In this document: one piece after another, positions 1 through 39,543 of the stretch
Layout of the letters: every line of letters begins with the position of its first letter
Numbering within the stretch: position 1 is the first letter of the stretch
Source: Vulcanimicrobiota bacterium
GTDB taxonomy: Bacteria; Vulcanimicrobiota; Vulcanimicrobiia; Eremiobacterales; Eremiobacteraceae
Direction: 5' to 3'
Length of the DNA: 40,356 bases
NCBI GenBank assembly: GCA_013290125.1
Contig: JABCYQ010000026.1
Location: 1 to 40,356 of the forward strand
The notes under the pieces: generated by a model
Seen by the model: the letters and a program-made list of their open reading frames with translations, nothing else
The model's database searches: none
What the model was told of the DNA's origin: nothing
Made by a program: the position numbers and the translations under genes

Positions 1-176
1 TGAAGGGGCCGAGTTTATCTCGGCCCTCGTTCGCGTCGCCTTGCTTCTCTGAAGGGGCCGAGTTTATCTCGGCCCTCGTTCGCGTCGCCTTGCTTCTCTG
101 AAGGGGCCGAGTTTATCTCGGCCCTCGTTCGCGTCGCCTTGCTTCTCTGAAGGGGCCGAGTTTATCTCGGCCCTCG
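1..176 (+). repeat. Tandem REP array, left flank of RAYT gene
   Basis: Three full 49-bp units start at 1, 50 and 99, and a partial fourth runs from 148 to 176. Each unit begins with a TGAAGG head followed by a hairpin whose arms are GGGCCGAG and CTCGGCCC around a TTTAT loop, then a constant GC-rich spacer. The array probably continues beyond the window edge. The stems differ from the copies on the other side of the transposase by a paired G/C exchange, which indicates that the hairpin itself is conserved. This is a REP (repetitive extragenic palindromic) array and not a CRISPR, because the spacers are identical. Confidence 0.9.
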
Positions 177-228
177 CTTTGCCTTGGATCGGCATTGTCG
201 CCGGCCTACGCCCAGTGAATGACGAGCC

Positions 229-741
229 ATGGACCGTCGACGCCCGCACCGCCTTCACGCCGCCAACTATCGACTGCCCGGGTTCTACCTTGTGACGTTC
301 TGTACAAAATTTCGAGCGCGTGTGTTCATCGATCGCCGTGCGGCGGCAACGGCAGTGCGCGTCTTGCGGACGCTCGATCAAGAAGGCCGGACTCAGCTAA
401 TCGCATACTGCGTTATGCCTGATCACGTTCATACTTTCTTCAAGAAACTAGGACCAGTTGAACATTTGTCGAGAATAGTCGCCTCCATGAAATCGCGCAT
501 TGGGCGTGAATTGCGGTATTCGTTCGAGTGGCAGCGAGGATACTGGGATAACCTCAAGCGATCGTACGAAGACCCGCGCGAAATTGTTGCCTACGTCTTG
601 TCCAATCCGGTCCGCGCCGGACTTGTCGACGATTTTCAAAAGTACGAGTTTAGCGGTGGGATAGGAATCAAAGGGTGGGCCGACATAAAGTCGGCCCCTT
701 CATCGGTTAATTCAAGCGGTCAAACATTTGGGCCGACATAA
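229..741 (+). CDS. REP-associated tyrosine transposase (RAYT, IS200/IS605-like Y1 HUH family)
   Basis: This 170-residue protein is a single-domain Y1 HUH transposase of the TnpA_REP type. The N-terminal strand reads PGFYLVTFCTKFRARVF. The metal-binding HUH motif is H66-V-H68 within MPDHVHTFF, and the likely catalytic tyrosine is Y122 in AYVLSNPVRAGLV. The WQRGYWDN segment before it is also typical. Family members nick single-stranded REP hairpins and are thought to spread them as non-autonomous elements. The gene looks intact and is flanked by inverted REP arrays, as expected for a RAYT. Residues from about 150 onward are encoded by the right-hand REP array, whose second copy supplies the TAA stop. 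The start at 229 is an ATG without a clear ribosome binding site. A longer start is unlikely because it would enter the left array. Confidence 0.92.
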   Translation: MDRRRPHRLHAANYRLPGFYLVTFCTKFRARVFIDRRAAATAVRVLRTLDQEGRTQLIAYCVMPDHVHTFFKKLGPVEHLSRIVASMKSRIGRELRYSFEWQRGYWDNLKRSYEDPREIVAYVLSNPVRAGLVDDFQKYEFSGGIGIKGWADIKSAPSSVNSSGQTFGPT

Positions 742-808
742 AGTCGGCCCCTTCATCGGTTAATTCAAGCGGTCAAAAATTGGGCCGACATAAAGTCGGC
801 CCCTTCAT
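677..808 (-). repeat. Tandem REP array, right flank of RAYT gene (inverted relative to left flank)
   Basis: Three copies begin at 677, 730 and 782 (periods 53 and 52 bp). Each holds arms GGGCCGAC and GTCGGCCC around a five-base loop, followed by CCTTCA, the complement of the TGAAGG head. The array therefore lies in inverted orientation to the one at 1-176. The first copy and part of the second are translated as the C-terminus of the transposase. Confidence 0.9.
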
Positions 809-841
809 AAACTTCGGCCCCTTCGGAAGGTCCGCCCTACA
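809..841 (-). repeat. Composite REP remnant (TGAAGG-type joined to GTAG-type head)
   Basis: Read on the minus strand this stretch starts GTAGGGCGGACCT and then passes into CCGAAGGGGCCGA, so a GTAG-type REP head is fused to a TGAAGG-type head without complete palindromes. A closely similar composite occurs at 13796-13861. It sits directly after the stop of the zinc protease gene and could affect its 3' end. Confidence 0.55.
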
Positions 842-11845: not shown

Positions 11846-11915
11846 TGAAGGGGCCGACGCCAGTCTGGCCCGCGTGATTCTAAAGGGGCCAGCCGGCCCG
11901 CAAGCGATGCGGGCC
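11846..11915. repeat. REP cluster with strong hairpin between divergently read-out genes
   Basis: A TGAAGG-headed REP starts at 11846, a degenerate relative (head TAAAGG) at 11881, and a perfect 8-bp inverted repeat GGCCCGCA/TGCGGGCC with a five-base loop spans 11895-11915. It follows the stop of the DAO-type oxidase gene (minus strand) and could help end that transcript, although no U-tract follows. Confidence 0.75.
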
Positions 11916-20576: not shown

Positions 20577-21155
20577 ATGGATAAACCCGGGACAGTGGCG
20601 GACCGGCTTGGCGACAAGCCCGCCGATGGGAAACTGCGCATCGTGCATGCCTTCATGAACACGCGTAACGGCGACGGACGTGAAGACTTACCAAATCCAG
20701 ACGCTCTGCGCGACTGGCTCGCTCGGCACGAACTGATCTCGGCTCGTGCTCGACTGAACAATGCAGATCTCGAGCAGGCGCGAAGCGTCCGCGATGCGCT
20801 CGTCCGCCTCTCAGCGGCACGTCAGTCCGGGCGGCAAGATATCGACGCGATCGAGACGCTGAACCGCGCGGCGCGCAGGGCACAAATGGCGGTGACTTTC
20901 GACGCGGACGGCCGAGGCCAAGTTCGCCCGCTCGCGCCCGCGTCCGACGGGGCGCTCGGTTCGATCATCGCCATCGTCTTTGAAGCGATGAACGACGGCA
21001 CGTGGGATCGGCTGAAGATATGCCGCGACGCCTCGTGCGCGTTCGCTTTTTACGACCGCTCGAAAAACCACTCCGGCACGTGGTGCGACATCGCGGTCTG
21101 CGGCAACGTCGCAAAAGCGCGGTCGTTTCGCGCGCGCCACGCAAAGCACGGCTAG
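20577..21155 (+). CDS. ABATE-domain CGNR zinc-finger transcription factor
   Basis: This protein of about 192 residues has an N-terminal ABATE-type region and a C-terminal CGNR zinc finger with four cysteines C149-x4-C154-x15-C170-x4-C175 (CRDASC and WCDIAVCGNVAKARSF). The family is thought to regulate stress-related genes by DNA binding through the basic C-terminus. The ATG is placed at 20577 because a good promoter lies immediately before it. The CGNR finger has Val in place of the usual Arg after CGN, a minor variation. It faces the microgenes across 144 bp, and the repeated GTAACC motif there suggests autoregulation and control of the microgenes. Confidence 0.87.
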   Translation: MDKPGTVADRLGDKPADGKLRIVHAFMNTRNGDGREDLPNPDALRDWLARHELISARARLNNADLEQARSVRDALVRLSAARQSGRQDIDAIETLNRAARRAQMAVTFDADGRGQVRPLAPASDGALGSIIAIVFEAMNDGTWDRLKICRDASCAFAFYDRSKNHSGTWCDIAVCGNVAKARSFRARHAKHG

Positions 21156-21935: not shown

Positions 21936-22001
21936 TGAAGGGGCCGACTTTACGTCGGCCCGCGTTATATAAGCCGGGCCGACACAAAGTCGGCCCCTTC
22001 A
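21936..22001. repeat. REPIN: two inverted TGAAGG-type REPs
   Basis: One REP with arms GGGCCGAC/GTCGGCCC starts at 21936, and its inverted partner ends in CCTTCA at 22001 with a short AT-rich spacer. This doublet can fold as one long cruciform. It fills the convergent gap between the HD hydrolase and the permease, where it might also act as a bidirectional terminator. Confidence 0.85.
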
Positions 22002-29646: not shown

Positions 29647-29672
29647 GTAGTAGGGCAAGCATCGCTTGCCCG
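29647..29672 (+). repeat. GTAG-headed REP element
   Basis: GTAG is followed by arms GGGCAAGC (29653-29660) and GCTTGCCC (29664-29671) around a 3-base loop. It sits 5 bp after the dehydratase stop. The GTAG head is the form known from RAYT-mobilised REPs in other bacteria and differs from the local TGAAGG family. Confidence 0.8.
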
Positions 29673-32097: not shown

Positions 32098-32123
32098 GTA
32101 GTAGGGCGAGCATCGCTCGCCCC
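32098..32123 (+). repeat. GTAG-headed REP element
   Basis: GTAG precedes arms GGGCGAGC (32104-32111) and GCTCGCCC (32115-32122) around a 3-base ATC loop. It lies 8 bp after the TonB receptor stop and has the same design as the copy at 29647, with a different but again paired stem base. Confidence 0.8.
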
Positions 32124-32724: not shown

Positions 32725-32785
32725 TGAAGGGGCCGATTATCTGAAGGGGCCGATTATCTGAAGGGGCCGATTTTATATCGGCCCC
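32725..32785 (+). repeat. REP with tandem 17-bp head-only duplications
   Basis: Units starting at 32725 and 32742 carry only the TGAAGG head, the first arm and GATTATC, with an exact 17-bp period. A complete REP with arms GGGCCGAT/ATCGGCCC starts at 32759. The two partial units end at nearly the same place, suggesting repeated slippage or nicking at one point. Confidence 0.85.
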
Positions 32786-39465: not shown

Positions 39466-39543
39466 TGAAGGGATTATCTGAAGGGGCCGACGCTAGTCGG
39501 CCCACGTTACGTAACCGAGGCCGATATAAAATCGGCCCCTTCA
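39466..39543. repeat. REPIN after selD, with a head-only remnant
   Basis: A short head TGAAGGGATTATC at 39466 is followed by a full REP from 39479 (stem GGGCCGAC/GTCGGCCC) and its inverted partner ending in CCTTCA at 39543 (stem CCGAT/ATCGG). The pair forms a REPIN. It lies between selD and tRNA-Gly. Confidence 0.85.

Follow-up and report, generated by a model that had tools for sequence, protein, structure and literature searches.

The window analysed here (a stretch of 40,356 nucleotides on contig C26 of the genome G000) opens with an intact gene for a REP-associated tyrosine transposase (RAYT), placed between two arrays of short palindromic repeats (REPs) whose heads point away from it (Table 1). 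The first-pass annotation had described a RAYT between tandem REPs of opposite orientation, at least four on the left and three on the right, and the coordinates and strands determined here agree with that layout. The four left-hand units are identical and recur with a period of 49 bp, and the right-hand copies are spaced with a period of 53/52. Each hairpin consists of an 8-bp stem and a 5-nt loop, with folding z-scores of about -4.5 to -5.7, and exact or two-mismatch copies of TGAAGGGGCCGA number 28 in the window, where 4.0 would be expected, and none of 100 shuffles reached that count. The start of the window is also the end of the contig, where the left array is truncated; it resumes on contig C51, which, read in reverse, carries five further 49-bp units (two of them of C/G type, with the head GAAA) followed by unique sequence. 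The left array therefore holds at least seven units if the two terminal identical copies of C51 are the copies at the start of the window, and at least nine otherwise.

Table 1 Coordinates of the RAYT locus and of the other REPs in the window
Feature	Position	Strand	Details
Whole locus, probable REPtron	1-840		One intact RAYT with inverted REP arrays on either side, heads outward
Left REP array, four copies	1-26, 50-75, 99-124, 148-173	+	T-GAAG-GGGCCGAG-TTTAT-CTCGGCCC
RAYT ORF (TnpA-REP)	229-741	+	170 amino acids
Right REP array, three copies	677-702, 730-755, 782-807	-	T-GAAG-GGGCCGAC-TTTAT-GTCGGCCC
Additional REP head	814-825	-	Degenerate, CGAAGGGGCCGA
Class-b REP	829-840	-	One half only, GTAG-GGCGGACC
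Class-a REP	11846-11870	+	Degenerate
Class-a REPIN (inverted doublet)	21937-22001	.	Gap of 14 nt
Class-c REP	29647-29671	+	GTAGTA-GGGCAAGC
Class-c REP	32098-32122	+	GTAGTA-GGGCGAGC
Head fragments and class-a REP	32725-32784	+	Two tandem 17-bp head fragments (TGAAGGGGCCGATTATC), then an intact REP of T/A type
Class-a REPIN	39480-39543	.	One half C/G, other half T/A

The protein scored 91.8 bits with the curated NCBIfam RAYT model NF047646 (REP_Tyr_transpos; cut-off 80) and also matched Pfam Y1_Tnp (7e-11), but fell short of the curated cut-off of the IS200 model (37.5 against 55 bits). It combines a HuH motif, H66-V-H68, with a single catalytic tyrosine, Tyr122, in a Y..NP motif, and H66, H68, Tyr122 and Asn126 are invariant in the alignment. 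The AlphaFold model (pLDDT 86) has as its top PDB match 4er8, the E. coli TnpA-REP bound to a REP (E 3.5e-9), followed by ISDra2 and IS608. The C-terminus is unusual in that the customary VDRW end is gone and the low-pLDDT tail in its place is encoded by REP sequence: the first right-hand REP is translated, and the stop codon (739-741) lies within the second. The tail (677-741) is thus made up of the first right-hand REP and the spacer, whereas relatives end at a conserved ...VDRW. The gene is present as a single copy in the genome.

Repeated heads akin to the fragments at 32725-32784 also occur at C1:182679 and C2:121862.

Head and stem of the class-a REP

When the repeat at this locus (class a) is anchored on its 8-bp stem, the foot tetranucleotide is GAAG, with a conserved T before it. 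The earlier claim of a head other than GTRG thus stands, but the sequence proposed for it, TGAAGG, does not. Among 82 copies, chosen for having at most one mismatch to TGAAG, head position 2 is A in 77, C in five and T in none, and GTAGGGGCCG occurs once in a 424-kb sample. Published definitions give the head as GT[AG]G (PMC3686654, PMC6006769), with the degenerate forms GYAG, GYRG, GTRG and GTMG in PMC3733652. GAAG and GGAG are absent from PMC8266576 and PMC3686654, and GAAG from PMC6006769, although other papers may differ. The head therefore lies outside the strict 5' GT[AG]G definition of the GTAG super-family, while the repeat has the features of a REP in the broad sense, i.e. a conserved asymmetric head with a palindrome, high copy number and an intergenic location. 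As a position-2 mutant, GCAG, is barely cleaved in the S. maltophilia system (PMC8266576), the RAYT of the window must either differ in this respect or be inactive.

In a larger sample of 128 class-a copies, GAAG follows the dinucleotide CT in 80, and CTGAAG is found 227 times genome-wide. We rejected CT as a proven cleavage site, since class-b heads are preceded by AT and not CT; it may instead be part of the repeat.

The loop-proximal stem pair is C/G or T/A genome-wide, and the G/C type is confined to seven copies, all of the left array (four in the window and three at the start of contig C51). The contrast that had been drawn between G/C on the left and C/G on the right accordingly holds for the copies in the window but not as an absolute rule, as two left-array copies on C51 are C/G. 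Among 76 copies remote from the RAYT the pair is C/G in 57, T/A in 12 and unpaired in seven, so that 69 of 76 are paired compared with 50.8 when partners are shuffled (P 5e-5); these copies stem from a small number of multiplied sub-families and hence do not count as independent events. This covariation supports selection for pairing and bears out the proposal that pairing is preserved while sequence drifts, but REP families are known to behave in this way, and sub-families that differ by complementary changes of their stem residues have been described (PMC3733652).

Dispersal of the repeats and related RAYTs

The first-pass annotation had called for a genome-wide search, and hairpins of this type do occur in other gaps: 400 strict class-a palindromes, mostly intergenic, were found in the 2.9 Mb of G000, with none for a reversed-pattern control. 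The sampled sequence comprised 826 kb of G000 and 1.26 Mb of its congener G001. Class-a copies were intergenic in 62 of 72 cases, and class a was carried by 43% of convergent, 19% of co-directional and 3.5% of divergent gaps, gap orientation resting on gene calls by a simple GC3-weighted ORF picker. Close class-a pairs in the sample are inverted (+-) in 31 of 41 cases, most of them with one same short gap of ~15 nt, and these inverted doublets of fixed spacing are REPINs. The proposed test in relatives also came out in favour of the annotation: among 148 genomes searched the palindrome is abundant only in G000 (400) and G001 (189, with no orthologous RAYT found), with zero to two copies per genome elsewhere.

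RAYT matches were obtained in 14 of these 148 genomes, ten of the 14 (G000 included) belonging to the same Eremiobacterota family. REPs with outward-pointing heads adjoin every one of the family's 15 RAYT loci, on both sides in 14 of them. Same-orientation runs are usual beside these RAYTs, with up to eight on one side, and tandem arrays are present elsewhere too; they are a habit of the family and not a peculiarity of this locus. Judged by the published survey, the view that such arrays are unusual is correct; for this family it is not, since they are the rule there. Our literature search, which was not exhaustive, found no paper treating Eremiobacterota together with repetitive extragenic palindromic sequences.

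The heads at the family's RAYT loci are mostly GTAG, with GTGG at L039, GGAG at L046 and L047, and GAAG at the window RAYT (L031); L049, whose RAYT is frameshifted, has GTAC. Beyond this family, Zipacnadia/Armatimonadota again have GGAG, and two Chloroflexi have GTAA. RAYT recognition has so far been defined around GTAG/GTGG, and related RAYTs with intact cognate arrays headed by GTAG, GTGG, GGAG or GAAG amount to a natural experiment on the residues that read the head. Variation is seen at two positions within the region described as contacting the head in the E. coli enzyme (PMC6006769, PMC8266576). At residue 101 (E. coli numbering) the window RAYT has Asn, where GTRG-headed RAYTs nearly always have His or Arg, and at residue 104 the two GGAG RAYTs of genus g3 carry His. 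With one lineage each, their role as head readers is suggestive only. A head-to-residue code pairing GGAG with His104 was rejected, as the GGAG RAYTs of Zipacnadia/Armatimonadota retain Arg104 and L152 has His104 yet a GTAG...CTAC double foot, and Asn101 with GAAG is a single lineage; judged from sequence comparison, such a code is a candidate only. L038, the RAYT of G001, was considered as an interrupted gene, a reading we discarded because its stops mark the natural C-terminus.

The REPs of two paralogous RAYTs in one genus (L046 and L047 compared with L032 and L033) share the outer stem but differ in head (GGAG or GTAG) and loop-proximal pair (A/T or C/G). Genome copies mostly keep head and pair linked, although some are mixed.

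A probable REPtron and its rivals

Taken together, the RAYT model passed, the predicted fold and the ~400 copies of the cognate repeat argue that the locus is a REPtron of a RAYT/REP system, i.e. a single-copy RAYT gene with inverted REPs of a dispersed family on either side, a reading to which we assign a probability of about 0.92. By analogy with characterised RAYTs, the HuH/Tyr nuclease would bind the single-stranded REP hairpin via the foot tetranucleotide GAAG, would cleave nearby, possibly at the CT ahead of GAAG in most copies, and would join copies of the REPIN to new sites. The arrays on either side would serve as its reference copies, growing or shrinking by tandem duplication, and we take the head to have drifted from GTAG at position 2. 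We propose that pairing in the stem persists because the enzyme acts on the hairpin. What we infer here is the cleavage chemistry, the head reading and the RAYT-driven copying, and, below, which way the RAYT site changed.

Two other readings deserve consideration. The locus could be an insertion sequence of IS200/IS605 type that moves as a unit, its arrays being hairpin ends and the dispersed hairpins MITE-like derivatives. This would account for the Y1 transposase fold and motifs, for ISDra2 and IS608 as the next structural matches after 4er8, and for an orthologous site in G001 that has no REPtron. However, the hairpin ends of IS200/IS605 elements lie on one strand, whereas the left and right hairpins here are on opposite strands; moreover, the transposase is not multicopy and missed the IS200 cut-off while passing that of the RAYT model, so we consider this explanation very improbable. 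Still less credit attaches to ordinary tandem repeats or transcription terminators with a transposase between them by chance: the strong hairpins and the convergent gene gap would suit them, but a conserved asymmetric head in ~400 scattered copies would not, nor would a stem with no T-run after it or the recurrence of this layout, with unrelated stems, around further RAYTs of the family.

The locus can be set beside its closest known systems. REPtrons (TnpA-REP) of groups 2 and 3, from E. coli, S. maltophilia and Marinomonas (PMC8266576, PMC6006769), likewise have a HuH Y1 enzyme with the Trp-Gln and D100/R104 region, encoded by a single gene flanked by inverted REPs, together with REPINs and an intergenic location, and those of group 3 have perfect palindromes, as here. 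The present locus differs from them in its GAAG head, Asn101, same-orientation arrays, REP-encoded C-terminal tail and host family in Eremiobacterota. With the GTAG super-family (24 families, PMC3733652) it shares a short stem-loop, a conserved foot tetranucleotide, complementary stem sub-families and the preference for convergent and unidirectional gaps, but it has A at head position 2; furthermore, head-to-tail pairs are frequent in the Eremiobacterota family, whereas HT dimers were absent or under-represented in that survey.

REP classes in the genus and at orthologous gaps

Three REP classes coexist in the genus, and each is commonest where its RAYT survives. Counts in G000, G001 and a third genome, G002, are respectively 400, 189 and 0 for class a (GAAG; cognate RAYT L031 in G000), 29, 220 and 0 for class b (GTRG-GGCGGACC; L038 in G001) and 50, 40 and 411 for class c (GTANNR-GGGCRAGC; L040 and L049 in G002). 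No cognate RAYT for class c was found in the G000 genome, and no ortholog of the class-a RAYT in G001; as G001 nevertheless has 189 class-a REPs, abundance alone is no proof of current activity. The simplest history is that the common ancestor had several RAYTs, that these were lost differentially and that the REPs outlasted them, as described in pseudomonads (PMC3686654) and in E. coli (PMC8049555). These repeats resemble known REPINs (PMC3116915, PMC8049555) in their inverted doublets of fixed spacing, in larger populations with a RAYT and in persistence without one, and differ in the three co-resident classes, in RAYTs split among congeners and in class replacement at orthologous gaps.

The site corresponding to the RAYT locus in G001 (C15, about 20600-20670) holds a complete class-b REP doublet and no REPtron, between flanking genes of ~80% identity. 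Given this doublet and the half class-b REP at the edge of the window locus, the REPtron most likely arrived at the window site after the two lineages split. It is less likely that G001 lost it by a precise deletion and was left with a class-b doublet that is still intact. Homologous recombination offers an alternative route.

We then compared 122 convergent or co-directional gaps between G000 and G001. Gaps that hold a REP in one species generally hold one in the other, and this is often a REP of another class. A REP is present in both species in 19 convergent gaps, in neither in 15 and on one side in seven; the corresponding co-directional numbers are 16, 62 and three. Where a gap has class a alone in G000 and no class a in G001, class b or c occupies it in G001 in ten of 16 cases (C5:29257, which counts among the ten, might be set aside, as both species have degenerate a and c copies there), compared with two of 79 control gaps without a REP in G000 (Fisher 4.6e-8) and none of 37 control gaps of at least 100 bp (Fisher 4.1e-7). 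One possibility is that few gaps are permissive and that these are refilled; the other is that some 3' ends retain a REP of any class. Such swaps bear on whether REPs are tolerated parasites or perform a host service at 3' ends, and they predict that some slots keep a REP though its identity is replaceable.

A stronger form of the second option, which we put forward tentatively and regard as rather improbable, is that some gene 3' ends require a REP of any class, supplied by whichever RAYT is active at the time; on this view REPs would be interchangeable elements that the host maintains, one class replacing another while the slot persists, and the RAYT heads (GTAG, GGAG, GAAG) would diverge so that co-resident systems avoid interference. 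The swaps, though not the rest of the data, might alternatively reflect ancestral gaps in which REPs of at least two classes lay next to one another, the species having lost different ones. Some present gaps do hold a and b or a and c together, but class a and class b lie within 60 bp of each other no more often than uniform placement predicts, and only a few occupied G000 gaps hold two classes, so that the majority of the swaps would presuppose an ancestral arrangement that is rare today; we think this, too, unlikely. Nested insertion as a general route of class replacement was rejected, a and b REPs within 60 bp not being enriched, and its remnants were seen only at the RAYT site, C1:25017 and C1:223228.

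Example gaps with a different REP class in the sister species are C1:195808-195910 and C1:236322-236439. Class-c heads are mostly GTACTA or GTAGGA in G002 and GTAGTA in G000 and G001, and the frameshifted RAYT of G002 (L049) is the one flanked by GTACTA copies. Class-b pairs in G001, unlike class a in G000, are predominantly head-to-tail (54, against 15 inverted).
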